Positions 2,655 to 22,987 of a stretch of DNA of 22,987 bases are shown here, piece by piece. The stretch's first letter is position 1; each line of letters begins with the position of its first letter. The notes beneath the pieces were generated by a model that ran no database searches, was not told the DNA's origin, and saw only the letters and a program-made list of their open reading frames with translations. Location of the stretch: positions 1-22,987 of IMG/VR virus record IMGVR_UViG_3300002137_000151, one strand, 5' to 3'. Position numbers and translations under genes: made by a program. Source of the stretch: a virus.

Positions 2655-2921
2655 ATGATACCAAAACAGTTTGCGTTAGCTGGCTGTACGTGGAGGGTAG
2701 TGGAGGTTGTGGATATGGAGGACTTAGGTTGTACCAATCCACAAACCTTCACTATCACCCTGCGTAAATCACTTAACACACAAGCAAAAGAGCAAACTTT
2801 TTGCCATGAGCTAGTCCACGCCATCAAATTTACGATGGGGCAGACGGAGCATAGTGAGCAAGAAGTGGATGCCTTTGGGCATCTTTTATATCAATTCCTG
2901 AAACATAAAGGTAGCAAATGA
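2655..2921 (+). CDS. Small HExxH putative zinc metallopeptidase between nrdA and nrdB
   Basis: An 88-residue protein with a zinc-peptidase motif, HELVH at residues 51-55. A downstream acidic residue, E70 in EQEVDAFG, fits the third ligand of the HExxH...ExxA arrangement seen in ImmA/IrrE-like and other minimal phage metallopeptidases. The first half is beta-rich with Cys11 and Cys26. It has no signal peptide or membrane segment, so it should act in the cytoplasm. It starts 3 bases after nrdA and its stop overlaps the nrdB start (ATGA), so it is built into the RNR operon. Substrate unknown: cleavage of a host regulator or phage protein is possible. Metallopeptidase assignment is by motif only. 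Confidence 0.75.
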   Translation: MIPKQFALAGCTWRVVEVVDMEDLGCTNPQTFTITLRKSLNTQAKEQTFCHELVHAIKFTMGQTEHSEQEVDAFGHLLYQFLKHKGSK

Positions 2922-3874
2922 GCCTTCTTGCACCATCAATGACCTACAAGCCCTTCAAATATGCATGGGCTGTAGAGTCAGCAGTACAACATGAAAAAAT
3001 CCATTGGGGAGAATGGGAAGCCAAGCTCCAAGAAGACGTAACACAATGGAAGAATGGTGACTTATCCACCAGCGAAAAGAAACACATTACCTCGATTTTA
3101 CGGCTGTTTACACAGTCAGATGTTGCGGTAGGTGGCAACTACATCAACTTATTCCTCCCAAAATTCCACAACAACGAGATCCGCGCAATGCTTACCTCGT
3201 TTGTTAATCGAGAGTTTGTACACCAACGCGCCTACTCACTCCTAAACGACACCCTTGGGCTTCCTGAAGAGGAGTATGGGGCATTCCTTGATTATGATGA
3301 GATGCGTGAAAAAATCGAATTCATGCAGAACGGGGACACCTCGACATTGACTGGTTTGGCTAAAGCGTTAGCACAGTCGGCGTGTAACGAGGGGATGAGC
3401 CTGTTCTCAGCGTTTGTGATGCTTCTAAACTACCAACGGTTTGGGAAGATGCGTGGAATGTGTGAGATCGTTGAGTGGTCGATCCGTGATGAAACAATGC
3501 ACGTCCAAGGAATGACCCAATTATTCCGCCAATTTTGTGAAGAACACCCAAGGATCATTACAGATGAATTTAAAAAAGGCATTTACCAAATGTTCAGAGA
3601 TGCTGTTTCTCTGGAGGATAAGGTTATTGATTTGGCGTATCAACTTGATGGTTCGATTGAAGGTCTGGAAAAAAGCGATGTCAAAATATACATTCGATAT
3701 TTAGCAGACCGCCGCCTGACCCAGCTTGGGCTGAAGCCAAATTGGGAAGTACCAGAGAACCCCCTGCCTTGGCTGGATTGGTTAATTTCTGGAGACAGTT
3801 TCAAAAACTTCTTTGAAGGCACAGTCACCGATTATTCCTCAGATGGAATGGCAGGAGATTGGGGCTGGAGCTAG
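2918..3874 (+). CDS. nrdB: Ribonucleotide reductase class I, small (beta) subunit
   Basis: A 318-residue ferritin-like R2 protein. The diiron ligands line up with E. coli NrdB by spacing: D68, E99, H102, E158, E192 and H195, with the radical tyrosine Y106 four residues after H102 (EFVHQRAY). The intervals D-to-E (31) and E158-to-E192 (34) equal those of E. coli, while the middle interval is about 30 residues shorter. All metal and radical residues are present, so a tyrosyl-radical class I enzyme is expected rather than a metal-free or Phe-substituted type. The C-terminus, rich in Gly/Asp/Trp (GDWGWS), would dock on NrdA. The start overlaps the metallopeptidase stop by four bases. Confidence 0.95.
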   Translation: MSLLAPSMTYKPFKYAWAVESAVQHEKIHWGEWEAKLQEDVTQWKNGDLSTSEKKHITSILRLFTQSDVAVGGNYINLFLPKFHNNEIRAMLTSFVNREFVHQRAYSLLNDTLGLPEEEYGAFLDYDEMREKIEFMQNGDTSTLTGLAKALAQSACNEGMSLFSAFVMLLNYQRFGKMRGMCEIVEWSIRDETMHVQGMTQLFRQFCEEHPRIITDEFKKGIYQMFRDAVSLEDKVIDLAYQLDGSIEGLEKSDVKIYIRYLADRRLTQLGLKPNWEVPENPLPWLDWLISGDSFKNFFEGTVTDYSSDGMAGDWGWS

Positions 3875-3902
3875 TAAGTAACCCATTATCGGACGTTTTA
3901 CT

Positions 3903-4079
3903 ATGAACTATCCTACAAGAAAGCCTCCTCTTTCTAAAGAGCTATTAGCCTTTCTTAATGAAACGTATCCCGACACACTCCCACGATCTACGTCACTAAC
4001 TGAACGAGATCTAGCATACCTTCAAGGACAGCGGAGTGTTGTTGATTTTATAATTAACCTATTTGAACAGGATGACTGA
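3903..4079 (+). CDS. Hypothetical 58-residue protein
   Basis: An ATG at 3903 opens a 58-codon frame to a TGA at 4077-4079. It fills most of the space between nrdB and the next small gene. The protein begins MNYPTRKPPLSKELLAFLN and ends with the acidic FEQDD; the middle holds LTERDLAYLQGQRSVVDFII. It looks like a compact, mostly helical soluble protein with no membrane segment. Only one base separates its stop from the next start at 4081. The upstream ribosome site is weak (GGA in the 3890s). Small genes at this place in T7 (6.5 to 7) vary greatly, and no function is assigned. Position, reading direction and tight packing make it likely real. Confidence 0.65.
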   Translation: MNYPTRKPPLSKELLAFLNETYPDTLPRSTSLTERDLAYLQGQRSVVDFIINLFEQDD

Positions 4080-4080
4080 T

Positions 4081-4296
4081 ATGTGTCTAATGGATGCACC
4101 TGCGACTCCAAAGACTCCTGACCCACCTGCGCCAGCGGCGGCACCTGTTGCCTCTAAAGAGCCAGACTTAAAGGTCAAGCGAGGAAAGTCACGCGCAGAA
4201 ATTGCCCAAGGCAAAAGTCGTTACCGAGTTGATTCCAAGAAAACCAATACTGGTTCTCAAATCTCCTCTGGTACGGGTCTAAATATACCAACATAA
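4081..4296 (+). CDS. Small Met-Cys virion-type protein (T7 gp6.7/gp7.3-like), copy 1
   Basis: A 71-residue protein beginning MCLMDAP, followed by a Pro/Ala-rich stretch, then the basic LKVKRGKSRAEIAQGKSRYR and the ending SSGTGLNIPT. The frame is open upstream to 4063, but the ATG at 4081 is preferred: AGGA at 4069-4072 lies 8 bases upstream, and this start gives the same Met-Cys N-terminus as the next gene. The shared GLNIPT ending shows the two are sister genes. From memory, T7 gp6.7 starts Met-Cys with an LKVER segment and T7 gp7.3 ends in a similar Gly-rich motif; both are small virion proteins near the connector gene. A virion role is inferred from position and these resemblances. Confidence 0.65.
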   Translation: MCLMDAPATPKTPDPPAPAAAPVASKEPDLKVKRGKSRAEIAQGKSRYRVDSKKTNTGSQISSGTGLNIPT

Positions 4297-4306
4297 GGAG
4301 AAGCGT

Positions 4307-4585
4307 ATGTGTGGTGGTGGTAGAGGGGGTGGCGGCGGCGGCGGCGGCTCCCAACAAAAAGCGGCAGGGGCACCGACCCCAGCAAGTCAAGGTAGCGCAG
4401 GTGGTAGTGCAGGTGGCGGTGGTGCCCCAGCAGTATCAAGTGCGAATGATAAATCCCGAAATCAGGCGAATAGACGCGCCAACGGTGCAAATCGGAATTC
4501 TTATAAAGTGAGCCTTAAAGTTGATCGTGCAAACGTCGGCGGCGATGGTTCCTCTGGGTTAAATATCCCAACTACGAGAGGCTAA
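4307..4585 (+). CDS. Small Gly-rich Met-Cys virion-type protein (T7 gp6.7/gp7.3-like), copy 2
   Basis: A 92-residue protein starting MCGGG with a nearly pure glycine run to residue 14, then Gly/Ala/Ser-rich sequence, a basic Asn/Arg-rich middle (KSRNQANRRANGANRNSYK), SLKVDR, and a C-terminus SSGLNIPTTRG. It matches the preceding gene at both ends (Met-Cys; LKV-basic; GLNIPT), so the pair probably arose by duplication. A strong AAGGAGA lies just upstream and the connector gene starts one base after its stop. The low-complexity body suggests a disordered chain packaged in or ejected from the virion, as proposed for T7 gp6.7/gp7.3. Function is inferred, not shown. Confidence 0.68.
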   Translation: MCGGGRGGGGGGGGSQQKAAGAPTPASQGSAGGSAGGGGAPAVSSANDKSRNQANRRANGANRNSYKVSLKVDRANVGGDGSSGLNIPTTRG

Positions 4586-4586
4586 A

Positions 4587-6143
4587 ATGCAATCACAACT
4601 GATGAGTGGATCCCCTCAGTCAGTTGCCCATCGGTACGGTCAATTAGAGGCTAACCGTATGCCATTTTTGGAACGGGGGCGTAGAGCGGCTGAACTAACA
4701 ATTCCAACGCTTTTACCCAAGGCGGGGAGTACATCTTCAACAGATTTCCCAACGCCGTTTCAATCGGTAGGGGCACGAGGGACGAACAACCTAGCGTCCA
4801 AACTTTTGTTGGCTCTTCTTCCGCCGAATGCCCCGTTCTTCAGGCTTTCGATAGATGAACAAACTGCTCAGATGATTGCGCCTCAGAAGCGCGGCGAGAT
4901 TGAAGCTAATCTTGCTAAGATCGAACGAGTAGCAATGCAAGAGATTGAGACTACAGCGGCACGGGTGCCAATCTATGAGGCACTACGTTCTTTAATTGTC
5001 ACAGGCAATGCCCTGCTCTTTGTACCACCGACAGGGGGTATTCGCGTATTTCGCTTAGACCGTTTCGTAGTCAAGCGTGATGCGATGGGTAATGTATTAG
5101 AAGTTATCACAAAAGAGACTGTAGCACGTCAAGCGCTACCTCCTGAAGCACAGGCGGTATTATCTGAGCCAAACAGTACAGATCAAGCCAACGTAGATTT
5201 ATACACACGGTGTGTGCTGGTCAAAGACTACTGGGAGTTAATCCAAGAAGTAGAAGGTACCGCAGTAAAAGGCAGTTATGCCAAGATTGCCGTGGATCGC
5301 ACACCCTTTATCCCATTACGTTTTATTCGCGTGGATGGTGAGGATTATGGGCGAGGATATGTAGAAGAGTACTTTGGTGACCTCGCGTCCCTAGAGTCTT
5401 TAACACAGGCTATTGTTGAAGGTGCGGCGGCGGCGGCTAAGTTACTATTCTTGGTGCGCCCAAATGGTACAACCAAGATGAGCGCCCTAGCTAAAGCACC
5501 TAATGGTGCGTTCGTGCAGGGGTCTGATGAGGATGTCTCTGTACTTCAGCTTAATAAGCAAAACGATTTCTCAGTAGCACAGGAAACTTCCCGTCAAATT
5601 ACTGAGCGAATGGCATTTGCATTCTTATTAAATACATCCGTTCAACGGGATGCTGAGCGCGTAACCGCAGAAGAAGTGCGTTTCATGGCACAGGAACTAG
5701 AGAGCGCCTTAGGTGGTGTCTACTCAATTCTTAGCCAAGAACTCCAAGCACCTTTTATTGAGCTGGTGATGAACCGCTTAGAGCTTCAGGGGAAAATCCC
5801 CATGATGCCTAAGGAGGCTGTAAAGCCACAGATCATCACAGGTCTTGAGGCACTTGGTCGCGGGCAGGACTTAAATAAGTTAGCAACGTTCCTAAAATTC
5901 TTACAACCACTTGGTGCTGACATCTTGGCACGTGAGATGAACATCGATGACTATATTAATCGTCTAGGTGCTTCACTTGGTATTGAGACAGAAGGGCTTA
6001 TTAAGTCCCCAGAGCAGAAAGCAATGGAAGCTCAGGCGGCACAACAGGCTCAACAACAACAACTCATGCAACAAACAATGGCAGGTATGGCTGAACGAGC
6101 CGCACCTCAGTTGGCACAAGGCATGATGCCGAAACAGGGTTAA
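4587..6143 (+). CDS. Head-tail connector (portal) protein, T7 gp8-like
   Basis: A 518-residue protein of the T7 connector family (T7 gp8 is 536 residues). Recognisable features are the N-terminal SVAHRYGQLEANRMPFLER, the segment GARGTNNLASKLLLALLPPN, and a central VEEYFGDLASLESLTQAIVEGAAAAAKL stretch (first part cited only). The last 40 residues are Gln/Met/Ala-rich. Twelve copies form the DNA gate at one capsid vertex, nucleating the scaffold-driven prohead and holding the gp11/gp12 tail. GAGAGG lies just upstream of the ATG, and the next gene begins two bases after the stop. Position, length and sequence style agree, so the call is firm. Confidence 0.93.
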   Translation: MQSQLMSGSPQSVAHRYGQLEANRMPFLERGRRAAELTIPTLLPKAGSTSSTDFPTPFQSVGARGTNNLASKLLLALLPPNAPFFRLSIDEQTAQMIAPQKRGEIEANLAKIERVAMQEIETTAARVPIYEALRSLIVTGNALLFVPPTGGIRVFRLDRFVVKRDAMGNVLEVITKETVARQALPPEAQAVLSEPNSTDQANVDLYTRCVLVKDYWELIQEVEGTAVKGSYAKIAVDRTPFIPLRFIRVDGEDYGRGYVEEYFGDLASLESLTQAIVEGAAAAAKLLFLVRPNGTTKMSALAKAPNGAFVQGSDEDVSVLQLNKQNDFSVAQETSRQITERMAFAFLLNTSVQRDAERVTAEEVRFMAQELESALGGVYSILSQELQAPFIELVMNRLELQGKIPMMPKEAVKPQIITGLEALGRGQDLNKLATFLKFLQPLGADILAREMNIDDYINRLGASLGIETEGLIKSPEQKAMEAQAAQQAQQQQLMQQTMAGMAERAAPQLAQGMMPKQG

Positions 6144-6145
6144 AC

Positions 6146-6967
6146 ATGACAACTATAAATGCGGCTCAGCTAAAGCTGGGCAATAACGGTAAAGGGTCGC
6201 AGGTTAGCACAAACATGCGTCGCCAACCCATAGATATGGGGACGGTAGAAGAAGTACCTAAAGTAAAACGGGGTCTTCCCGCCCCTAAAGCGCGAGGTAA
6301 AGCGGGTATATTAGCACGGGTGATAAAACTTGCCAGAGGTGCGGCTGTTGCGCTCAACGCTTCAACTTACTCCAAAGGTCTAAACACCAATGAGGATGCG
6401 GAGTTAAAGAAGCGAAAAGCATCTTCCCCTACCCTTAGCGCGAGTAACGCTCGACGTGGTGCGGCACGTATTAAAGAAGGTGTTAACAAGGGTCTTAACA
6501 GCAATAACAGCGTCAGAAAAACGCCTGATTATGTTGGTGGTAAGAAAAAACGGGAAGGTGGACAAGCTAGGTCACTTAAGCCCGTTAAAGCGGCAGTCGC
6601 CGCTACAACGTCAGCCGCCGCTAAAACGCCCGTTAAAACGACAGCCGCCGCTACAACGTCAGCCGCCGCTAAAACGCCCGTTAAATTTGTGGGGCAAGGC
6701 TTACGAAAGGCAGGTATGTCTGTTAGTGGTAGCATAGGTGACAGCGTCTCTAGTCTCGGCAATGTTACGAGCAACGTAATGAAGGCTGACCTAACAGATG
6801 CATCACTTAAAAAGGCTGGCTTAGCCGCCTCAAACAAGGATGCCTCTAAAGGGTTTGCAGGTTCGTTTAAGCGCCTCTTTGAGGGCAACATCGATAATGC
6901 AGGTTCTGCGGCATACAAAAAGTATGGGGCTGGGCGTGGCTTATCTGAGTTACTCAAAAGCAAGTAA
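6146..6967 (+). CDS. Basic Ala/Lys-rich protein with tandem repeat, between connector and scaffold
   Basis: A 273-residue protein without a counterpart between genes 8 and 9 of T7. It is rich in Lys, Ala, Ser and Gly and poor in aromatic residues. Residues about 146-180 contain two 16-residue repeats, PVKAAVAATTSAAAKT and PVKTTAAATTSAAAKT, then a further PVK, reminiscent of the PAK-type repeats of histone H1-like and AlgP-like proteins. The Arg/Lys-rich N-terminal half also looks disordered; the last 60 residues (FKRLFEGN, YKKYGAGRGLSELLKSK) may form helices. No enzyme motif or membrane segment is seen. Its place in the head operon suggests a virion or assembly protein, perhaps DNA-binding, but that is inference from composition and position. 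Confidence 0.72.
   Translation: MTTINAAQLKLGNNGKGSQVSTNMRRQPIDMGTVEEVPKVKRGLPAPKARGKAGILARVIKLARGAAVALNASTYSKGLNTNEDAELKKRKASSPTLSASNARRGAARIKEGVNKGLNSNNSVRKTPDYVGGKKKREGGQARSLKPVKAAVAATTSAAAKTPVKTTAAATTSAAAKTPVKFVGQGLRKAGMSVSGSIGDSVSSLGNVTSNVMKADLTDASLKKAGLAASNKDASKGFAGSFKRLFEGNIDNAGSAAYKKYGAGRGLSELLKSK
6581..6685 (+). repeat. 48-bp tandem repeat (two units plus 9-bp partial)
   Basis: Units at 6581-6628 and 6629-6676 both start CCCGTTAAA and share ACGTCAGCCGCCGCTAAAACG (part of it); a third CCCGTTAAA follows at 6677. The unit length is a multiple of three, so gain or loss of copies keeps the frame. The units differ at a few bases, mainly near the start. Confidence 0.9.
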
Positions 6968-6984
6968 GTAAATAAAAAATTATC

Positions 6985-6989
6985 AGGAG
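6985..6989 (+). promoter_or_regulatory. Ribosome binding site for the scaffold gene (supports GTG start)
   Basis: AGGAG at 6985-6989 is 6 bases upstream of a GTG at 6996. No ATG lies nearby in frame, so GTG is taken as the scaffold start. Confidence 0.65.
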
Positions 6990-6995
6990 TATTTT

Positions 6996-7784
6996 GTGGA
7001 AGACATCAACACATTTGATGGCGAACCTACAGAGACTGCTGAACAGCAAGCGGAATTAATCCGTGTGGCAGAGGGTGGTACTCCCGCCCCTGCCTCTGCT
7101 GGTTCAGATCGTCCAGAATGGTTACCAGAGAAGTTCAAATCTGCGGAAGATTTAGCACAAGCATATTCTGAATTAGAGCGCAGGCTTGGTTCAGATGACT
7201 ATGACGATGAGGAAACAAACGAAACAGATGAGGATTTCGATCCCAACGAGTTTTCTCCACCTGAGGTTTCTGAATACCTAGCGGAACAGAACCTTAACTT
7301 TGATGCGTTTGCACAAGAGTTCTACCAAAATGGGGGACTATCTGATGATGCATACACAACACTAGAACAAAACGGCATCCCACGGGGTATTGTTGATCAA
7401 TACATCGAGGGTCAGACAGCTATCATGGCTGATATGCAGGACACCGCCTTCCAAGCTGTAGGTGGTCAGGCTGAATATACAAACATGATTAGTTGGGCAC
7501 AGAACAGCTTGAGCCAAGGTGAGATTGATGCATTTAATGCCAATCTAAACACCAATGATATGGATCAAGCCTTGTTCGCAATTCAGGGACTAGCGGCGCG
7601 TTACCGATCTGATATGGGTGGTCTACCTAGGAACATGACCTATGGTCAGACTAATACCACTTCAGCGGGGTCTTACCAGTCTATCGCGGAAATGACGCGG
7701 GACATGGCAGACTCGAAGTACGCTTCCGACCCTGCATTCCGACAGATGGTGGCTTCTCGTTTGAGAAACTCCAACATCCTGTAA
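6996..7784 (+). CDS. Capsid assembly scaffold protein, T7 gp9-like
   Basis: A 262-residue acidic protein (T7 gp9 is 307). It has the usual opening of T7-type scaffolds: a Pro/Ala/Gly-rich region, then RPEWLPEKFKSAEDLAQAYSELERRLG at about residues 39-65 (key residues PEWLPEKF, SAEDLA, YSELE), then an Asp/Glu-rich linker (DDYDDEETNETDEDFD). The C-terminal part is helical with a final FRQMVASRLRNS. It would guide gp10 into a prohead and leave before DNA packaging. The start is GTG with AGGAG 6 bases upstream. It directly precedes the capsid gene, as in T7, but here a terminator lies between them. Confidence 0.92.
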   Translation: MEDINTFDGEPTETAEQQAELIRVAEGGTPAPASAGSDRPEWLPEKFKSAEDLAQAYSELERRLGSDDYDDEETNETDEDFDPNEFSPPEVSEYLAEQNLNFDAFAQEFYQNGGLSDDAYTTLEQNGIPRGIVDQYIEGQTAIMADMQDTAFQAVGGQAEYTNMISWAQNSLSQGEIDAFNANLNTNDMDQALFAIQGLAARYRSDMGGLPRNMTYGQTNTTSAGSYQSIAEMTRDMADSKYASDPAFRQMVASRLRNSNIL

Positions 7785-7880: not shown

Positions 7881-7927
7881 ACAATCCTGTGTCGAGACAT
7901 TGCAAGAAAGCCTGAGTGTTAAAAACC

Positions 7928-7947
7928 AGAGCATCTGCTCTATTTTT
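7928..7947 (+). other. Weak terminator-like hairpin before the capsid gene
   Basis: AGAGC, ATCT loop, GCTCT, then ATTTTT. A run of five A at 7921-7925 mirrors the T-run, so the element is nearly symmetrical. The stem is only 5 bp, so terminator function is doubtful; a processing site or 5' stabilising hairpin is equally possible. Confidence 0.3.
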
Positions 7948-7979
7948 GTACATTCCACTTTTTTGTAAGGAACTAAACT

Positions 7980-9005
7980 ATGGCTTTGCCAGATTACTCC
8001 CCCTCCCGTCTTGGTCAAACTAACGCCGCTGGCGATGATCGCGACCTCTTTCTAAAATTGTTTGCTGGTGAAGTTCTCACGAGCTTTGAGCACACCAACA
8101 TTGGTATGGGTTTGCACCGTGTGCGCACCATCGCCAAAGGTAAATCCGCCAGCTTTCCGCTGACAGGTTATGCCTCTGCGACATATCACACCCCCGGAAC
8201 TATGATTGATCCAACGGGTGTAAAACATGGTGAGCGTATTGTCACCGTTGATGACTTGCTGATCAGCCCTGTGTTTATCGCAAACATCGATGAGGCAATG
8301 AACCACTTTGATGTGCGCGGTATCTACTCTAAAGAGTCTGGTGCGGCATTGGCACGTCAAGCTGATCGGAACGTATTCCGTACCGTTGCAAAAGCCGCGT
8401 TCATCACTAACGGCACACAAGCCGCCGCCGAGTTCGGTGCGCAGTTTGATGACGAAATCTACACAGCAAACCAGACCATTGGTGCCGTTGCAGGTGATTC
8501 AACCGACCCTGTTAAGATTGTTGAAGCAATCTACAAGGCAGTTGAAGAGTTCGCTTTGAAGAACGTGCCTACCGACAACGCTGTTATCGTGTTGCCACCT
8601 GTGCAGTACTACGCGCTGTTGAATGTCTCTGATGTCACCAAAGCCGCTTGGCTGAACCGTGATGTTGGTGGTGCAGGTTCTACCGCAGGTGCTATGGTGC
8701 CTGTTGTTGCTGGTCTGCGTGTGATGATGAGCAACCACCTCCCTCAGACTGACCAGACATTGGCACTGGCTGACGGTGATACCGCTCCAATCACAACTAG
8801 CCGTGCTGGTAAGTACAAGGCTGACTTTAGCTCAATCAAGGGCTTGATCTTCACCCCCGATGCCGCCGCATCCGTCAAGTTGATGGATCTGGGTGTTGAG
8901 GCTGAGTATCAGATCGAACGTCAAGGCACCTTGATGGTCGCTAAGTACGCTATGGGACATAACGTCCTGCGTCCTGCTTGCGCCATTGCTCTGACGAGCG
9001 CCTAA
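7980..9005 (+). CDS. Major capsid protein, T7 gp10-like
   Basis: A 341-residue HK97-fold capsid protein of the T7 family (T7 gp10A is 345). Typical segments are DRDLFLKLFAGEVLTSFEHT near the N-terminus, the GKSASFPLTG stretch, DPTGVKHGERIVTVDDLL (partial), and the C-terminal KYAMGHNVLRPACAIAL. It forms the icosahedral shell around the scaffold. AAGGA precedes the ATG. Codon choice is unlike most neighbours: Asn is almost always AAC, and Leu is mostly CTG, TTG, CTC or CTT, as expected for the most highly expressed phage gene. Terminators lie on both sides, so it appears to be its own transcription unit. I saw no obvious frameshift site for a gp10B form. Confidence 0.96.
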   Translation: MALPDYSPSRLGQTNAAGDDRDLFLKLFAGEVLTSFEHTNIGMGLHRVRTIAKGKSASFPLTGYASATYHTPGTMIDPTGVKHGERIVTVDDLLISPVFIANIDEAMNHFDVRGIYSKESGAALARQADRNVFRTVAKAAFITNGTQAAAEFGAQFDDEIYTANQTIGAVAGDSTDPVKIVEAIYKAVEEFALKNVPTDNAVIVLPPVQYYALLNVSDVTKAAWLNRDVGGAGSTAGAMVPVVAGLRVMMSNHLPQTDQTLALADGDTAPITTSRAGKYKADFSSIKGLIFTPDAAASVKLMDLGVEAEYQIERQGTLMVAKYAMGHNVLRPACAIALTSA

Positions 9006-9010
9006 ACCCT

Positions 9011-9046
9011 TAGGGGAATCCTGTAAAAGGGGTTCCCCTATTTTTT
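9011..9046 (+). terminator. Strong rho-independent terminator after the capsid gene (T7 T-phi position)
   Basis: TAGGGGAATCC pairs with GGGTTCCCCTA (11 bp with one G-U) around a TGTAAAAG loop at 9011-9040, then six T at 9041-9046. It starts 5 bases after the capsid stop, the same place as T-phi in T7, where it limits readthrough from capsid into tail genes. Confidence 0.92.
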
Positions 9047-12423: not shown

Positions 12424-13035
12424 ATGTGTACTCCCGAAGCGATGGCAGGGGCGGCGGTATTCCAAGGAATAATGCAACAAGACGCCGCTGTTGAACAAGC
12501 GAACAGGCAGAACGCAATGTATCTTGAAAATGCACAGAACGCTCGTACAGCGGCTACTGATGATCAACGCGCACTTAATATGCGGATTGGTCAGGAAGGG
12601 GATGCCGCCTCGCAACAGCGCTTTGCCGCCTTAGTTCAAGGAATGCGAAATAGCGGTACTGCCACAACCGCCGCAGGTGAAGCAGGTGTCTCAGGTAACT
12701 CTGTCTCTGCTTTACTTGCTGACCTAACCCGTCAAACAACAGTCCAACAAGGTACGATTACTCGTAACTTTGATATGACAAAAAACCAAATTGAACAGAA
12801 TAAAGAAGCAACCAAGTCAACCTTCACCTCACGAGTCAACTCCGTGCAAAAGGGGTCAGCCCCCTCAGCAACCGATGCCCTCCTTGGAATTGGGATAAAT
12901 GCTGGCATGGCATACGGTTCGGCTTCGATGGGTCAGCAGGATATTGCTAACGTTAAAAGCGGCATACCTACACGCGGAAGTAGCGCGTTACCATCCTCTG
13001 GTAGGGCGAATATGACCCGCGCTTTTAACCGGTGA
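12424..13035 (+). CDS. Internal virion protein B, T7 gp14-like
   Basis: A 203-residue Ala/Gln/Asn-rich helical protein (T7 gp14 is 196). It begins MCTPEAMAGAAVFQGIMQQ; a Met-Cys start followed by a short apolar Gly/Ala segment is also how I recall T7 gp14 beginning. A long helical region rich in Gln and Arg follows, then the Gly/Ala-rich ATDALLGIGINAGMAYGSAS, which could insert in a membrane. In T7, gp14 leaves the capsid and forms the outer-membrane pore of the ejection channel with gp15 and gp16. It abuts gp13 with no gap. Confidence 0.88.
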   Translation: MCTPEAMAGAAVFQGIMQQDAAVEQANRQNAMYLENAQNARTAATDDQRALNMRIGQEGDAASQQRFAALVQGMRNSGTATTAAGEAGVSGNSVSALLADLTRQTTVQQGTITRNFDMTKNQIEQNKEATKSTFTSRVNSVQKGSAPSATDALLGIGINAGMAYGSASMGQQDIANVKSGIPTRGSSALPSSGRANMTRAFNR

Positions 13036-15087: not shown

Positions 15088-18000
15088 ATGGAACCAGACG
15101 TATCACCTCAGGATCCCTCAACTGCGGTTGGGATTACCCCTGAGATCACTACGCTCTCTTCAGACAACCTTCAGTTGGCTGATGGGGCTGATAATCTTAG
15201 TAAAACTGAAATAGAAGCCCAAGAAGCATCCGCCCCTACATGGGGACAGACGTTTTCTATTGCTACTGATGAGTGGCTACATAATCTTGTACCGCTAATG
15301 AATGTGCAAGGGCAAGGTACGCCATTACAAGAGATTACTGAAGAAATGGAAGTCAAGGCGGGTATTAATACAATGCCTCCTGAATTCCGTAACTATGTAA
15401 TTGAGAAATCCAATACTGATACGGAATTTGAGTATTACAGTCAGATCGCCCGTCAGCGTATAACTAATTTGGAGAAGATGCAAAACGCCTCAGTCCCCAA
15501 AATTATCGCAGGGGCGCTGGTTTCCGCTTTTGATCCCGCAGAGCTTGCAATAACAACCATAGCCACCTTAGGCATGGGTACGGCAGTTAAGGCTGGCTTT
15601 GGTGTTATGGAGGGGGCAGTCGCCGCCAAGAACGCTCTGAAATTAAACCAGTCTGCACAGGCGATTAGCGCCTTAAGTAAGACCGCCGCATTATCTAAAG
15701 GTGGCGCGTTTGCTAGAGGTGCCGCCGCTAACATGGCATTAACTGCGCCTTTTGAACTAACGCGCCAAGCCTTCCTGCCCGATTATGGCGCAGGAGACTT
15801 TGCGATGGTAATGGGCTTTGCAGGTGGTTTGGGTGGTATCGGTGGACGAATGGTTCGAGGACATGACACCACAAAACTCGCGGCTATTCTGTACAAACGT
15901 GAGCAATTAGGGGAACCTTTAACACACGCTGAGAAGCAATTCTTTGCTCCCATTATCGGAACTGAGACCTTAGCTGAGCGTAGTCGTGCATTAGAAAACC
16001 TCTTTGGTGATGCTAAAATTAAGACACCCACGGCGGCTAAGGCATCAGCAGAAACATTGGATGCTACAGGCTCTAAGCCAGCACCAGTCGGTTTAGGTAT
16101 TAATGATGTATTTACAACCGCTTCCGATGACGCGCTGTCTGCAATGACTGAAGGGTTAAGCGGGACAGGTGCCAAACTTGTTAGAGAGGCGCTGGAAAAG
16201 AGGATGACTTACCGCGCTATCCAAGTGCAATTGTCACGTCTTCAAGCGGCACGTCAAAAAGCCCGTTACACTTTAGACAACGGTAGTGACGATGAGATCA
16301 TTAGTAAATTTGGTAAAGGTGTTAAGCCTGAAGATTTTGAAGACTACTACGGGTACTTAGGTGAGGTAAGAAAGAAGGCTGATAATTCTATACACGTTAT
16401 GTTGCGTAAAGAAGAGGCATATGATGCTATTCTTAACCAACGCTTAGAACGTATGCGAGATGTTGATATACCTGCTGGTGTTCAAGGGATCGATACGGGA
16501 GACATAGCACGGTATGAGAATGCTCCCTTCTTATTAGGTGTGAAAGCATTTATGCCAGCCTCGGTTCGCAGGAACCTATCATCCTTAGCTAGAGGCGCTG
16601 AAAGTAAGATTGGTGCGATGCGCCAGATCTTCTTTGCCTTGGGGACTAACCATGTTGGCTTATCCAACCGACAGGCTACCAACTTTAGTGCGGAAGAAAT
16701 CCGTAATTGGGTGCAAGCAAAGAAGGATGGTCAATGGTTACCTAAGCACCAGCTAAATCAGAAAGAGTGGATTAAGAAGAACGGTAAGAGCCAAGGTCGT
16801 ATGGTCAAAAGCCCAATGCAGTTTATGCGCGATCAAATGGAGTTTAACGCCTTAGTCGCACGACACCGCCGCTATGGGGATGTCTCAGATCCTTTGGTTG
16901 TTGCCTCAGCAAATGATGCTAAGCGGGTTCTTGATGAAGTAGCGCAGATGGCTCTCGATGCCAAAGTGCGTGGCTTTAGTTCGGAACTGCTAGAAAAGAA
17001 TTATTTGCCACGTATCTACAACGATGTGTCGATGGATGCTGTGCTACAGAAGCTAGGCAAAGAGGGTTTTAAAGAGCGTTTTATTAATGCTGTCGCTAAA
17101 GGTAATCCTGAGATGGATATTGAAGTAGCCCAGCGCATTGGTCGCGGTTACGCAGAGGCGTTACTGAAGCGGATGCAACAGCGCTCATTAGGCAGTCAAA
17201 TGCGAAATGTATCACAGGTTGCACAAGACAGTGTAGATGATGTCCTCGATATTATCCGCGCCGAAAAGACTCTTTCTGAAGAAGAGTTTGCGGCGATTGA
17301 ACGGGAAATTGGACGTGTCTATAAATTTAGCTCTGTCGGTAAAGAGGGCATCTCACGAGTACGCAAGCGTATGCAGTTAGATGAACGATACATCGATGAT
17401 ATGACTGAAAATGATATCGAGCAGTTGATGCAAGCGTACACCTTTCAAATGGGTGGGCAAATTGGATTGGCGCGTAATGGTATTGATGTAGAGGGTGGTA
17501 AGAGCTTTGAGGAGATGCTTTCAGATATTACAAAGTACAATCAAGATAATCGTGTAGAGCTTGATGAAGATACCTTTGTAGATCAGATAGCCGCCGCACG
17601 GTTTTTGTATGATTCAGTAACTGGTAACTTGGCAAAAGATGACAACTTATTTGGTACTGGCGAGAAAACAATGCGGAGGATCCGCGACTATAACTTTATT
17701 CGAGTTATGGGTGCCACAGGCTTACCTTCTTTAGTTGAGATAGGGAGCTTGATTGATCACTCTGTTGGGACGATCTTTCGGACAATACCTGAGCTACGCA
17801 GTATGTGGCGCAAGACCGCAGAGGGGCAGTTAGATGACCCATTAGTGCGTGAGTTACAACATTCGTTTGGTACAGGTACCGATGTAATCACAGGGCATAG
17901 TAGAAATCATTGGGATGACCATGACCATACCATGCTACAAAGTGATTTTGATCGGCACGATATGTTCTTACAGAAGGGTCGCCAAGCAACAGCTATGGCT

Positions 18001-18858
18001 AGTGGGATGCTCCCCGTGACTGCAATCTTACGTCGCCTTGATGGGTATATGTTTGCACAAGACTTCTTTGGTGCCGCTATGAAAAAGGGTGCTGATAAAA
18101 GCCGTGTGTATTCTGACATTAAGTTAGAGCAGATTGGTATCAGCCCCAAAGACTACGATGGCATTATGGAGATGATCCGTAAACACGCCGCTTACGATAA
18201 AAGCGGAAAGCTGATTACGCTTAACCTAGATAAGTGGAAAGCCGATAACCCGAAATTGCATGATGTATTCTCTTTGGCAGGGCGCAGACACGTTCTCAAT
18301 GCTGTGCAAGAGACTTCATCCAGTTCTGTTAATAGGTTTCTCCGCACCTCTGTTGGGCGAACTCTCTTTCAGTTTATGAGCTACCCTATTGCCGCATCTG
18401 AACAACAAGCGCAACGCTTAGGTGTTCGAGCGCTACATGGTGATGCTGGGGGGTCTGCAAGGATCATCCTGTCTCAAGCACTCATTGCGACAATGGTTTA
18501 CTACGTCGGTATTCATAATCGTGCGGCGGGTATGTCTGAAAAGAAACGCAAGCAGTATCTTAAAGACAACTTAGACATGAGTTCGGTGATTGCGAAAGGA
18601 ACCTTAGGGTACCTTGGTTTCTCTGGTGCCTATGGTGCTTTTGCTAACCAGCTTACCTCAGGTAATATGATGCAGTCACCTACCACAGATCTTTTAGGGG
18701 GTGCCTCTAAATTGTTTAACGCAGGTTCTGATGGTCTCTTTAATGGTAAACCACCATCTGAGGGGACTATCCGACAGTTAACAAGGCTGACACCTCTTCA
18801 GAACTGGTATGGTACTAACTACATATTAAATAAAATGTCTGCACAACTCGGTAACTAA
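15088..18858 (+). CDS. Internal virion (core) protein D, T7 gp16-like, no visible transglycosylase domain
   Basis: A 1256-residue protein (T7 gp16 is 1318), the largest in the window and in the gp16 position. T7 gp16 starts with a lytic transglycosylase (SLT) domain of about 150 residues. Here the first 150 residues are an acidic Ser/Thr/Pro-rich arm followed by helices, and no E-S-x-x-N type motif is seen. Apolar segments lie around residues 140-185 (IAGALVSAFDPAELAITTIA) and near the C-terminus (LSQALIATMVYYVGIH; GTLGYLGFSGAYGAFA), fitting insertion in the inner membrane during ejection. The C-terminal RTLFQFMSYPIAASEQQAQR region is typical of the family. AAGGA precedes the ATG. Confidence 0.92.
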   Translation: MEPDVSPQDPSTAVGITPEITTLSSDNLQLADGADNLSKTEIEAQEASAPTWGQTFSIATDEWLHNLVPLMNVQGQGTPLQEITEEMEVKAGINTMPPEFRNYVIEKSNTDTEFEYYSQIARQRITNLEKMQNASVPKIIAGALVSAFDPAELAITTIATLGMGTAVKAGFGVMEGAVAAKNALKLNQSAQAISALSKTAALSKGGAFARGAAANMALTAPFELTRQAFLPDYGAGDFAMVMGFAGGLGGIGGRMVRGHDTTKLAAILYKREQLGEPLTHAEKQFFAPIIGTETLAERSRALENLFGDAKIKTPTAAKASAETLDATGSKPAPVGLGINDVFTTASDDALSAMTEGLSGTGAKLVREALEKRMTYRAIQVQLSRLQAARQKARYTLDNGSDDEIISKFGKGVKPEDFEDYYGYLGEVRKKADNSIHVMLRKEEAYDAILNQRLERMRDVDIPAGVQGIDTGDIARYENAPFLLGVKAFMPASVRRNLSSLARGAESKIGAMRQIFFALGTNHVGLSNRQATNFSAEEIRNWVQAKKDGQWLPKHQLNQKEWIKKNGKSQGRMVKSPMQFMRDQMEFNALVARHRRYGDVSDPLVVASANDAKRVLDEVAQMALDAKVRGFSSELLEKNYLPRIYNDVSMDAVLQKLGKEGFKERFINAVAKGNPEMDIEVAQRIGRGYAEALLKRMQQRSLGSQMRNVSQVAQDSVDDVLDIIRAEKTLSEEEFAAIEREIGRVYKFSSVGKEGISRVRKRMQLDERYIDDMTENDIEQLMQAYTFQMGGQIGLARNGIDVEGGKSFEEMLSDITKYNQDNRVELDEDTFVDQIAAARFLYDSVTGNLAKDDNLFGTGEKTMRRIRDYNFIRVMGATGLPSLVEIGSLIDHSVGTIFRTIPELRSMWRKTAEGQLDDPLVRELQHSFGTGTDVITGHSRNHWDDHDHTMLQSDFDRHDMFLQKGRQATAMASGMLPVTAILRRLDGYMFAQDFFGAAMKKGADKSRVYSDIKLEQIGISPKDYDGIMEMIRKHAAYDKSGKLITLNLDKWKADNPKLHDVFSLAGRRHVLNAVQETSSSSVNRFLRTSVGRTLFQFMSYPIAASEQQAQRLGVRALHGDAGGSARIILSQALIATMVYYVGIHNRAAGMSEKKRKQYLKDNLDMSSVIAKGTLGYLGFSGAYGAFANQLTSGNMMQSPTTDLLGGASKLFNAGSDGLFNGKPPSEGTIRQLTRLTPLQNWYGTNYILNKMSAQLGN

Positions 18859-18896: not shown

Positions 18897-19790
18897 ATGG
18901 CTTATTCATATCAGGAATTTATCGGGGATGGGGTTTCTAATAACTACAACATCCCCTTCACATACGTTAAAACTTCAGAGGTTAACGTTTTTATTAATGG
19001 GGTGGTGACTACCGACTTTGAGTTCAGTAGCACTTCAACACTAACATTGGGTGTTGTACCTGCGAACGGGGTGATTGTTCGTATTGCACGTACTACAGAC
19101 CTAGAAACACGTGCTGTAGACTTTGTAGCTGGTGCGGTGCTTTCTGAGGAAGACTTAGACACAGCATTAACGCAGGTGTTCAACGGCGCTCAAGAAGCTG
19201 TAGATAAAACGGCAGAAACAATCGCCAAATCAACTGATGGTTCTTTTGATGCACAGGGACGTATTATACGAAACGTTAATGACCCAGTACTTGGTCAGGA
19301 CGCGGCAAATCGTCAATGGGTCATCGCTCAAACAGCTACTTCAGTTTCCGCCGCCGCTAATTCTGCAAGTGCATCGGCAGGTAGCGCAGTAACCGCTTAT
19401 AATGAAGCCACCCGCGCCTACAATGAAGCACAACGCTCCCTTGGGTTTGCTAACACGGCAAGTACACAGGCAGGTAACGCCTCAACAAGCGCCACAGCCG
19501 CACAAGATTCTTATCAAGATGTGCTAAACGCTTTAGATGCCGCGAATATCCCAAATCAGCTTGCAGGTCGCGGAGGAGAGTTCCTACAAGTGAAAGCGAC
19601 TGCTGATGGCTACGAGCTAGTCGCATCGGTGGCGGCACCTTCGTTTTTTGGGTTACGCACAGTGGGTTCAGAAATTGAACTGACATATGGACGTGATGCA
19701 GATTTTGATGTGGCGGATTTTGATACGTGGACAATGGCAGAAAACATTACGCTTGCTGTTCAAAACAATAACTTGGTGATTCAGTTATGA
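18897..19790 (+). CDS. Tail fibre adaptor, T7 gp17 N-terminal type, without receptor-binding domain
   Basis: A 297-residue protein. Residues 1 to about 140 form the T7-type fibre attachment domain (YQEFIGDGVSNNYNIPFTYV; VARTTDLE-like segment; SEEDLDTALTQVFNGAQEAVD), which docks fibres to the gp11/gp12 junction. About 142-212 is an Ala/Ser-rich helix, probably a trimeric coiled coil. Residues 224-242 (GRGGEFLQVKATADGYELV) are a hinge motif common in phage fibres, and 250-297 form a short beta-rich end (GSEIELTYGRDADF; ENITLAVQNNNLVIQL). T7 gp17 is 553 residues with a large tip, which is lacking here. The ATG has only a weak GGGG ribosome site. Its TGA overlaps the next start (ATGA), so the next gene is probably its partner. 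Confidence 0.88.
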   Translation: MAYSYQEFIGDGVSNNYNIPFTYVKTSEVNVFINGVVTTDFEFSSTSTLTLGVVPANGVIVRIARTTDLETRAVDFVAGAVLSEEDLDTALTQVFNGAQEAVDKTAETIAKSTDGSFDAQGRIIRNVNDPVLGQDAANRQWVIAQTATSVSAAANSASASAGSAVTAYNEATRAYNEAQRSLGFANTASTQAGNASTSATAAQDSYQDVLNALDAANIPNQLAGRGGEFLQVKATADGYELVASVAAPSFFGLRTVGSEIELTYGRDADFDVADFDTWTMAENITLAVQNNNLVIQL

Positions 19791-21487
19791 AGATAGATAC
19801 AACAAAACTTGGTTACCGCTGGAAGGGCATTTATGCCGCTGGTGCGGTATACGCAAAAGGAGATGTAGTTCGGAAAGAGGGTCAAGCACAGGTGTTTGAT
19901 GGACTTTACTGGACACGCATGACAGCCGATCAACAGAACGCTGTACAAGCAGGGGAACTTGCAACATTCGGTGAAGCCACCCTTTTAAAGGGCGCTATGG
20001 ATCAACAGCTTTACGTCAACGCCGCTGGTGATGACTTAGAGTTTCGCTACGGCGAAGGGCGCACAAGTTCAGCCTGTATTGATATTGCAGACATAGATAA
20101 CGGCTGTTGTAATGGTCAAAGTAACGGAGGTGAAACAGCCGCCGCGCTGATGTCCGACGGTACAGTTTGTATGTGGGGCTATGGTGGGCATGGAAACATG
20201 GGTGATGGTGCTACTTACAACCGATCAAAACCTGTTCGTGCGGCATTCCCTCCTAACACACCTCCGATTGTGAAGATCGCACGAGGCTATTACAACACCT
20301 TTGCTATCGATGCGGATGGTAAGCTGTGGGCATGGGGATACAACAACTACGGTCAAGTTGGTGCAAACACTGGTACTACCAACGTAAACATTCCGACGCT
20401 CATAAGTGGTAAGGGGGATCTACCCCTCGATGCTAAAGTGGTTCAAGTTAAGGGTGGTTCTGGATACTATGCATACAACGCCACATTGATCCGTACTGAA
20501 GACGGTCGTGTGTATCACTGCGGCTACCAAGCCTACGGCAGTGCTGGGACTCAAGACGGTCAAAGTACTACCCACGCCGCGCCTAAGATCGTCCGACGTT
20601 CTATCGACACAAAGATTGTCGATATGTTTGTCTGGGGTATTTATCATCACGCAACTTGGCTGATTGATGAAAAGGGACAATTGTGGGGCGCTGGTGAGCA
20701 GAACACTATTGGTCGTCTAAATAACAGCGCCAACACAGACTCTATGCACCAGTTGTGGAACCCATCCACCTCCGATCCTGTTGTAAAGCTGGTCTTTGAA
20801 GAGTCAGACGAACACGTCAACGCTGGTAACCAGCACTACCGTCAATTTATGATCATTACTCGTAGTGGGCGTATCTGGTCATGGGGAAATGGTTCTACCC
20901 ACAGTACTGGAACAAACTACATTTCTGATCCCGCTAATGGCGGTTTTGAGACATGGGTGCCTAAGCTGGACAGCCGTATCGACAACGTGGTTGATGCTTA
21001 TGTTGGTGGCGGTTGGTACTCCCAAGCGATGGTCGTGAAAGCTGATGGTACTGTTTGGGCGATTGGTAATAACCAAGACGGCCTCTTTACACCGAGTGCA
21101 CAAAGCTACCAGTGGATCCCTGTCTACCCCGACTACCTAACCAATGTGGTCAAGCTGTATCCCGGCGGTGGTCGCCACGGCAAGTCGTGTGGTTTTCTAA
21201 CCGCTGACGGTAAGTGGTATATGTCTGGTATGAACAACTCTGGTCAATCAGGTAACGGTTCTGCCACCACAGGGTGGACAGTTCCCGCACTCGGACACGC
21301 ACGGTTGCCAGCACCAATCACGAAAGTGACGTACATTGGCACAACTAATGACGCCGCAAACTACCAGACCATCTACGCAATGTGTGGTGACGGTAACCTC
21401 TACTCATGGGGTTACAACGCTAACGGTCAGCTAGGTTGGGATGATGACCAAGAATATTCTTGTGTCCCCTCACCAGTACTCTTTTAA
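19787..21487 (+). CDS. RCC1-repeat beta-propeller tail protein with CBM5/12-like N-terminus, copy 1
   Basis: A 566-residue protein. Residues 9-47 resemble a CBM5/12 fold (YRWKGIYAAGAVYAKGDVV, then YW). Residues 70-90 are a stalk-like motif shared with the fibre adaptor (DQQLYVNAAGDDLEFRYGEG). From about 117 to 566 I count eight RCC1-type repeats with the pattern DG-x-[LV]-[WY]-x-[WS/CG]-G, clearest at 124-140, 176-192, 239-254, 419-427 and 535-551 (ending WGYNANGQLG). RCC1 propellers are usually seven-bladed; the extra motif may close the ring or be a degenerate blade. No signal peptide or membrane segment. Coupled to the fibre gene by ATGA overlap, so a receptor-binding tip is the likely role, which is inference. 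Asn and Tyr codons strongly favour AAC and TAC. Confidence 0.85.
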   Translation: MKIDTTKLGYRWKGIYAAGAVYAKGDVVRKEGQAQVFDGLYWTRMTADQQNAVQAGELATFGEATLLKGAMDQQLYVNAAGDDLEFRYGEGRTSSACIDIADIDNGCCNGQSNGGETAAALMSDGTVCMWGYGGHGNMGDGATYNRSKPVRAAFPPNTPPIVKIARGYYNTFAIDADGKLWAWGYNNYGQVGANTGTTNVNIPTLISGKGDLPLDAKVVQVKGGSGYYAYNATLIRTEDGRVYHCGYQAYGSAGTQDGQSTTHAAPKIVRRSIDTKIVDMFVWGIYHHATWLIDEKGQLWGAGEQNTIGRLNNSANTDSMHQLWNPSTSDPVVKLVFEESDEHVNAGNQHYRQFMIITRSGRIWSWGNGSTHSTGTNYISDPANGGFETWVPKLDSRIDNVVDAYVGGGWYSQAMVVKADGTVWAIGNNQDGLFTPSAQSYQWIPVYPDYLTNVVKLYPGGGRHGKSCGFLTADGKWYMSGMNNSGQSGNGSATTGWTVPALGHARLPAPITKVTYIGTTNDAANYQTIYAMCGDGNLYSWGYNANGQLGWDDDQEYSCVPSPVLF

Positions 21488-21496
21488 GGAAAAAAT

Positions 21497-22987
21497 ATGC
21501 CAACCATTTCTCTGGGCAAAGTAGCCCTGACATGGCGTGGTGCCTACAATGCAATAACTGCTTACGCGAGTCAGGATGTTATTTCGTTTGGCGGCTCTAC
21601 GTACATCGCAAAAACTAACACTACAGGTGTGGATCCCACAGACCTTACCAAATGGGATTTACTTGCCCAAGGTATTGAGAGTGTTTCATCAAACGTAGGG
21701 GAGTTAGTCTATTTCGATGGTACACAACTACAACCCCTACCTGTGGGTACCGCTGGTCAAATTTTAAAAGTGGGCACCTCAGGACTCCCTGAATGGGGCG
21801 CACCAGAGCAACGCTCAGGCATGAGGGCTGTTGCCATTCAAGACTACCGTATGCCTTATATGTACCGCAAAGGTATGGCAGTAATGTCAGACGGTTCCTT
21901 ACGTATGTGGGGACGTGGTACTGGCTATATGCTTGGGCAAGGTGATTACAATCCTGCGCGGTCATACCCTATACGGGTGGGCTTCCCGCCTGAAGCTGGT
22001 AAGGTTATCTATGCCTGTGGTCAGTATGACTACGCCACAGTAGCTATTACTGATGACGGTAAATTTTGGGCTTGGGGTGAGAATGATCATGGTGAGGTAG
22101 GTAGGGGGAATACCACTAATACTACTGTTCCTTATTGTTCTTCAGACAACGTCAGTAACTCATTGTTTGGTAAGACTGCAATTGATTATGCCCCAATGCC
22201 TTCCAACAATAATAGCCTTTCCCATTTGGTGTTGTGTTCAGACGGCACAGTTCACGCCTGTGGTATCAACAGTTATGGACAACTGGGGCAAGGTGACACC
22301 ACTCAACGTACCAACTTTGTGCAAGTCCCTCTGCTGACAGGTATCACCAAGATTGCTCGTGGTCGTGAACTATACACAAGTTGCTATGCATTGAAAGATG
22401 ATGGCACCGTGTACTCGTGGGGCTACGGACCTAATGGTGGTCTTGGGCATGGTAATGCCACGCAGATGAACATTCCGATGCAGATCATGTATTTTGTGCA
22501 GAACAACATTACGATTGTTGATATAGGCACAGGACTCGATCTGGGCTGGGCAATCGATGATCAAGCAAACCTCTACACATGGGGCTACAACAACTACGGT
22601 CAGCTTGGTCATAGTGGCACGACAACGAGCCCAACTCCGACGCTTGCCGCGACAAATGTCAAGTTCTGCTACTCATCTAGCATTGATTACCAACGCACAA
22701 ATATCATCAAGACAGATGGTTCAGTATGGGCAACAGGACGTAACGATTACGGTTGTCTTGGTGTTGCCGCTGACACAACCCACCGCTCAGGTTTCCAAGA
22801 GTGTCTGAAAGAGGGCACAACTGGCTTCACTAACGCCACTAAGGTGATCTTAGGTGGCTCTGGCTCCTACAACTACACCATAGTCCTCGATGAAGATGGC
22901 GTGTGCTGGTCTGTCGGTTACTCAGGTCACGGTCAGCTTGGGCGTGGTGTTGTTGGGACAACCCACTACTGGTTCTACCCTGTACTG
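21497..22987 (+). CDS. RCC1-repeat beta-propeller tail protein with CBM5/12-like N-terminus, copy 2 (3' end outside window)
   Basis: An ATG at 21497, preceded by AAGGA, opens a frame that stays open for 497 codons to the window edge. Residues 10-57 are a clear CBM5/12-like module (W13, Y17, Y23, V28, Y36, W53; LTWRGAYNAITAYASQDVIS). Residues 69-101 are a fibre stalk motif (QPLPVGTAGQILKV, then GLPEWG). From about 126 on there are seven visible RCC1 repeats, for example MSDGSLRMWGRGTG, DDGKFWAWGENDHGEVG, DDGTVYSWGYGPNGGLG, NLYTWGYNNYGQLG and DGVCWSVGYSGHGQLG. Same architecture as the preceding gene, so the two are tandem paralogues with diverged sequence. The last blade or a C-terminal domain is missing from view. 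A second receptor-binding or surface-binding tail protein is inferred. Confidence 0.85.
   Translation, partial: MPTISLGKVALTWRGAYNAITAYASQDVISFGGSTYIAKTNTTGVDPTDLTKWDLLAQGIESVSSNVGELVYFDGTQLQPLPVGTAGQILKVGTSGLPEWGAPEQRSGMRAVAIQDYRMPYMYRKGMAVMSDGSLRMWGRGTGYMLGQGDYNPARSYPIRVGFPPEAGKVIYACGQYDYATVAITDDGKFWAWGENDHGEVGRGNTTNTTVPYCSSDNVSNSLFGKTAIDYAPMPSNNNSLSHLVLCSDGTVHACGINSYGQLGQGDTTQRTNFVQVPLLTGITKIARGRELYTSCYALKDDGTVYSWGYGPNGGLGHGNATQMNIPMQIMYFVQNNITIVDIGTGLDLGWAIDDQANLYTWGYNNYGQLGHSGTTTSPTPTLAATNVKFCYSSSIDYQRTNIIKTDGSVWATGRNDYGCLGVAADTTHRSGFQECLKEGTTGFTNATKVILGGSGSYNYTIVLDEDGVCWSVGYSGHGQLGRGVVGTTHYWFYPVL

Follow-up and report, generated by a model that had tools for sequence, protein, structure and literature searches.

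Phages of the SP6/K1-5 kind carry two tailspikes that attach through short N-terminal peptides to an adaptor of 300 amino acids (PMC6872550). The locus described here resembles that arrangement: like gp37 of SP6, K1E and K1-5, its adaptor is approximately 300 residues long, lacks a tip, begins with a T7 gp17-like N-terminus and goes with two further proteins. The first of these, which we call RCC1-A, has a conserved N-terminus for which we propose a docking role by analogy with the short conserved docking sequences at the N-termini of the SP6, K1E and K1-5 tailspikes (PMC6872550). There are also differences. SP6, K1E and K1-5 use trimeric tailspike enzymes, whereas the putative tips at this locus are RCC1 propellers (RCC1-A and RCC1-B) and both of their genes lie directly behind the adaptor. 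Furthermore, the C-terminus of the adaptor has no T4gp10-like sequence match and is a different module, one that occurs on many anchor types. An adaptor with two receptor-binding proteins is of a known kind; what sets this one apart is the putative RCC1 tips and a docking module that can be transferred.

A second precedent comes from the cultured Pseudomonas T7-like phages PollyC (A0A2K9VI36) and Ppr_SeaP1 (SeaP1_12), in which a T7 fibre N-terminus is fused to RCC1. The first-pass annotation of this DNA held that RCC1 propellers are not part of the T7 tail model, a statement that these fusions show to be too strong. PHROG 4219 and the PollyC and Ppr_SeaP1 proteins share with our locus a T7 fibre anchor and RCC1 repeats in the fibre slot, but each is a single chain in which the anchor is joined to one RCC1 region, and there is neither a separate docking module nor a second propeller protein. 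When the fused SeaP1 protein served as query, a viral scan returned no match. Propellers of other families, with other blade numbers and embedded in trimeric multidomain proteins, are used or suspected in receptor binding by the phi11 receptor-binding protein, which has a five-bladed propeller platform, and by PhiKZ gp131, which has a C-terminal propeller (PMC4901313). In the cultured phages S-SRM01, Jenst, LIBA6276 and BUCT-ZZ01, RCC1 genes adjoin tail-fibre genes and some are paired, as they are here, but similarity is below 35%, the C-terminal module of the adaptor was not found and the annotations are unexplained.

These proteins have numerous relatives in viral metagenomes, with at least 552 in one scan and two or more RCC1 open reading frames (ORFs) at many loci. 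One 13-kb viral locus (L079) has eight separate RCC1 ORFs and many others have two to four; at another (L129), an RCC1 gene (5428-7209) stands in a row with glycosyltransferase-like genes and the gene of a long SGxSG-repeat protein (1052-2689, 2689-7209). In databases, phage RCC1 genes are named "regulator of chromosome condensation" and filed under DNA metabolism, and the RCC1 fibres of PollyC and Ppr_SeaP1 are deposited there without explanation. Within the non-subscription literature searched, we found no description of RCC1 tail tips or fibres, or of the gene set reported below.

A tip-less adaptor followed by two RCC1 proteins

The window, the whole stretch of 22,987 bases that we analyzed, is a virus record and represents a fragment of a T7-like phage. 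It encodes T7-type portal, scaffold, Gp10A-like capsid, tail tube and nozzle proteins and T7 Gp13/internal virion proteins. A 42.5-kb relative, G001, has a T7-type RNA polymerase (single-subunit, PF00940, 1.3e-105), DNA polymerase, primase-helicase, terminase and integrase. By the criteria used for Autographiviridae, the RNA polymerase in G001 and the T7 structural module in the window identify the phage as T7-like. In G001 (L044) the gene immediately after the integrase (7919-8917) encodes a tRNA-Leu(TAA) (8931-9017) that could mark an attachment site, and a similar tRNA-Leu is present in the T7-like phage LUZ100, which has temperate features. No close bacterial match was found; the best among 369 genomes of one class was 84%, too low to name a host. 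Elsewhere in the window, a Lys/Ala-rich protein encoded between the portal and scaffold genes (6146-6967) differs from that of G001 by in-frame length changes, with a dN/dS of 0.73, and two adjacent small low-complexity proteins upstream of the portal (4063-4296 and 4307-4585) have a common C-terminal motif, GLNIPT.

Within the final 4 kb of the window lie three co-directional genes, all on the plus strand, downstream of a gene 16-like internal virion protein (15088-18858; phrog_342, 1.2e-80), the conserved gene that directly precedes the fibre position. The first encodes the adaptor, a tip-less tail-fibre protein of 297 residues (18897-19790) with a T7 gp17 anchor (PF03906, 6.8e-30), an alanine-rich stalk and approximately 80 further residues. 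Domains of the PF03906 type bind the tail in T7-like phages. Here the anchor spans residues 1-142 (18897-19322), with the Pfam match covering 3-142, and residues 11-137 or more can be matched to the solved N-termini of T7 gp17 and of other T7-like fibres; relatives with other anchors have an unrelated counterpart. At the other end, residues 216-297 or thereabouts (19542-19787) form the C-terminal module, SVAAPSFFGL...TYGRDADFDVADFDTWTMAENI...NNNLVIQL, at which we propose that the RCC1 proteins dock. Sequence searches with the adaptor beyond anchor and stalk found no Pfam or PDB match, T4gp10-like or otherwise.

The three genes are tightly packed. The adaptor gene, which ends in TGA (19788-19790), and the RCC1-A gene, which starts with ATG at 19787, overlap by four nucleotides, and this ATGA (19787-19790), indicative of translational coupling, recurs in 40 contigs. 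Nine bases with an AAGGA ribosome site separate RCC1-A from RCC1-B, which starts at 21497; the ribosome-binding site AAGGAA lies at 21486-21491. The coordinates given in the first-pass annotation, and its account of a fibre gene lacking a tip and coupled to the first RCC1 gene, with the second following nine bases later, are thus correct: the N-terminus matches PF03906, only about 80 residues follow the stalk, and both junctions can be read in the sequence.

That the two downstream genes encode consecutive RCC1 propeller proteins, as had been proposed from the letters alone, is borne out by Pfam matches well above the curated cut-offs. RCC1-A (19787-21487; 566 residues) matches PF25390 at 1.9e-62 and 212 bits and RCC1-B (21497-22987) at 6.4e-73 and 247 bits (cut-off, 150); the corresponding values for PF00415 are 2.6e-31 and 108 bits, and 1.5e-38 and 132 bits (cut-off, 21.7). 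RCC1-B is cut by the end of the window after 497 of 553 residues; complete copies of 553 residues are found in L009 (476-2137) and L034 (6736-8397), so the window copy is short by 56. AlphaFold2 modeled both proteins with a propeller fold, at a mean pLDDT of 61 for RCC1-A, which is modest confidence, and 72 for RCC1-B. Foldseek searches of the PDB with both models returned UVR8, HERC2 and RCC1 at probability 1.0, with UVR8 matching the RCC1-A model at 4e-24. These eukaryotic proteins and RPGR have the same repeat family and fold, but with seven blades, a number typical of solved members though not demanded by the Pfam definition, compared to the eight hairpins counted in each window protein and in the majority of relatives. 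Of the seven to eight repeats initially suggested, eight is the number that holds for each protein, and these would close into an eight-bladed ring. Likeness to UVR8 or RCC1 gives no reason to infer an exchange-factor or photoreceptor function.

The propellers are preceded by two different N-terminal regions. In RCC1-A, the repeats (20108-21484) follow a region of 100 residues (19787-20086) that opens with a near-invariant M.ID....GYRWKG.Y, the proposed docking peptide. This very start is the most conserved stretch of the protein: at least 90% of the 33 dereplicated loci retain D4, G9-G14 and Y16. In RCC1-B, the propeller (21845-22987, from residue 117), assigned from the AlphaFold2 model, Foldseek and the repeat count, has eight hairpins when complete and follows a leader domain (residues 1-105; 21497-21811) that matches parts of the tail-fibre families phrog_9851 and phrog_5073. 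The leader also matches the start of genes downstream of the fibre in Pelagibacter phages. In two of these, HTVC024P (L052, 3001-3810) and HTVC041P (L131, 12121-12900), it occurs without RCC1 repeats, and the genes probably encode further fibre proteins that use an RCC1-B-type leader. A CBM5/12-like N-terminus, previously ascribed to both proteins, did not hold up: CBM_5_12 matches only the second, with 12.8 bits (E 0.13) where the curated cut-off is 26.2, and we rejected such a module in favor of the phage fibre leader. No trimerisation domain or intramolecular chaperone was recognised.

A paired cassette on unrelated anchors

We define the cassette as RCC1-A and RCC1-B together with the C-terminal module, some 80 residues long, of the adaptor. 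Profile searches of viral contigs identified 39 loci with the RCC1-B profile and 52 with the RCC1-A profile, and the cassette is present on 66 contigs, including the window. Searches of the phage collection found it in no cultured phage. The full order of adaptor, RCC1-A and RCC1-B is found on 54 of the 66; on the other 12, the contig ends inside the unit, the end of the adaptor is divergent, or there is a single RCC1-B-like protein. In one divergent case (L284), the adaptor end escapes the profile yet finishes with a similar NN.LV stretch. A single RCC1-B-like protein directly follows the adaptor or fibre gene in L163, L168 and L171. Wherever the contig extends further, RCC1-A never occurs without RCC1-B, and the gap between them is mostly 10-13 nucleotides. 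Across 33 dereplicated cassettes, RCC1-A and RCC1-B distances correlate with a Mantel r of 0.92. The two tips may serve two surface glycans or two host types, as the first-pass annotation suggested, but the two propellers are strongly co-inherited, which argues against free choice of each.

Two further arrangements are of note. In L253 (2900-3625), the adaptor frame is broken upstream of the C-terminal module by a frameshift or a sequence error, leaving the module in an ORF of 69 residues. In L168 (101-3130) and L171 (5086-8115), a weakly T7-like adaptor is followed by one RCC1-B-like protein of 704 residues and no RCC1-A.

By contrast with the constant C-terminal module, the adaptor N-termini can be sorted into eight or more types that are unrelated to one another. 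Besides PF03906, these comprise a fibre N-terminus of phrog_8469, a type marked by TRPKLEQ, two short types and several that occur singly. The C-terminal module stays with the RCC1 pair across these changes. Even between two adaptors, those of the window and L005, residues 241-297 are 75% identical and residues 1-142 only 39%. One of the short anchor types (L142) is encoded downstream of, and adjoining, a tape-measure gene; the cassette therefore also occurs on long tails. Mapped on the RCC1-B tree, in which the deep branches connect long ones and we place no trust in any single one of them, the T7-anchor label changes eight times, and well-supported branches force at least five of these changes. 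Chimeric assembly is an unlikely source of the anchor/cassette junctions because identical junctions recur in independent metagenomes, for example in the groups L136/L137/L156/L268, L258/L259/L260 and L282/L283/L285.

These patterns suggest that the cassette is a standard plug-in unit for recognizing the host. We lean, with some reserve, toward a standard-interface cassette in which a docking module and strictly paired eight-bladed RCC1 propellers are combined with at least eight anchors on short- and long-tailed phages, the first propeller also being exchanged alone.

Exchange and substitution in the propellers

Comparison of the window with G001 revealed where the locus varies. DNA identity is mostly 97-99% in gene 16, the adaptor anchor and the leaders of RCC1-A and RCC1-B, and approximately 90% in the adaptor stalk. 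In the RCC1-A propeller, however, it falls to 73-93% per 150-base step (82% overall; dS 0.61) against a background of about 95-99%. The window propeller is nearer to that of L005, at 86%, than to that of G001; elsewhere L005 is far more distant (49% at the adaptor N-terminus and 76% in RCC1-B). L009 has an RCC1-B 100% identical to that of the window and a different RCC1-A end, and the island pattern appears again between L137 and L139, with 83% identity in the RCC1-A leader and 42% in the propeller. As judged from these alignments, the RCC1-A propeller is exchanged by recombination within otherwise near-identical DNA. A second island of divergence lies at 12424-13035, in a gene at an internal-virion position (82.5% nucleotide identity to G001 and dS 0.45, with neighbors at 96-99%).

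Amino acid changes in RCC1-A are concentrated on one face: the AB/CD loops stand at 39% and the opposite BC/DA loops at 10% (p 5e-7), with strands assigned from the modest-confidence model (pLDDT 61). In RCC1-B, changes relative to G001 also favor the AB/CD-loop face (13% compared to 1% on the opposite face, p 0.001), but those relative to L005 have no clear bias (p 0.08). A simpler, motif-based measure of CD-loop excess gave 2.5-3.0 for RCC1-A and 1.5-2.3 for the remaining viral RCC1 pairs. The range was 0.5-1.8, with a pooled value of 1.2, for bacterial control pairs, for which the genome scan supplied RCC1 proteins at only 28-37% identity. The excess is weak in RCC1-B (1.2-1.7) and absent in some other cassette pairs.

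A probable receptor-binding device and competing explanations

The first-pass annotation had read the locus as a modular receptor-binding apparatus, a tip-less adaptor with two propeller tips. The comparative evidence supports this reading well, because the genes are syntenic behind many anchors, the adaptor C-terminus is co-inherited with the pair, one propeller is exchanged and the changes gather on one face. The RCC1 pair very probably forms the part of the phage that recognizes the host cell. We further consider it likely that the products of the three genes form a virion device for receptor binding, an SP6/K1-5-like adaptor and two propeller tips with their own docking module, since the genes occupy the fibre slot after gene 16 with a PF03906 adaptor, and T7 fibre and RCC1 are fused in Ppr_SeaP1 and PollyC. 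In the model that we propose, the T7 gp17-type N-terminus of the adaptor would anchor the device to the tail, and its C-terminal module of about 80 residues would hold RCC1-A, presumably by direct contact with the conserved start M.ID....GYRWKG.Y. RCC1-B would be held through its fibre-leader domain, either by the adaptor module or via RCC1-A. The tips would be the two eight-repeat propellers, with RCC1-A as the diversifying tip that determines specificity and RCC1-B as its more conserved partner. The cassette would move between phages together with its docking module and so plug onto unrelated anchors, and the RCC1-A propeller would additionally be swapped by homologous recombination.

The best-surviving alternative is that only RCC1-A binds the host and the other RCC1 protein is structural, serving as a branch point, a spacer or an assembly or chaperone partner of the fibre. 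The greater conservation of RCC1-B, its weaker loop bias and its widespread type of leader would all fit such a role, as would one record that annotates the RCC1 region of PollyC as "tail fiber assembly". Yet the propeller of RCC1-B is full and equal in size to that of RCC1-A, its changes relative to G001 also favor one face, and in L168 and L171 a single B-type protein follows the adaptor and is necessarily the tip there. We regard this alternative as unlikely.

Far less probable is a role in condensing or organizing DNA in the virion. This was suggested for the jumbo phage phAPEC6, with its eleven RCC1-like proteins, in the form of a DNA-ordering function (PMC7247149), and "DNA condensation protein" is a database name for such proteins. 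The phAPEC6 suggestion, however, rests on the domain name alone, and coupling to a tail adaptor, travel with the adaptor C-terminus across anchors, and recombination and diversification of one propeller are unexpected for a protein that packs DNA.

Eukaryotic RCC1 is the Ran exchange factor and other RCC1-like domains act in signaling, which might suggest a protein that acts inside the host cell as an effector or in the manner of an exchange factor. Against this, the genes lie at a late structural position, the N-terminal domains are of the fibre type, there is a docking module, T7 fibre and RCC1 are fused in homologs, and a search of defence-system families gave no match; it is the least credible reading. 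We rejected both the DNA-condensation and intracellular roles as main explanations.

With a receptor-binding device as the favored reading, the comparative case is strong for re-filing one large group of RCC1 proteins, at least, as host-recognition proteins. If the standard-interface model is true, the cassette is a general plug-in system for host recognition, one that is common among phages not yet in culture and missing from those records of cultured phages that we searched. The docking module, the conserved RCC1-A N-terminus and the likely binding face are now named, making the question directly testable, and a docking module behind many anchors would aid in spotting receptor-binding genes in uncultured phages.
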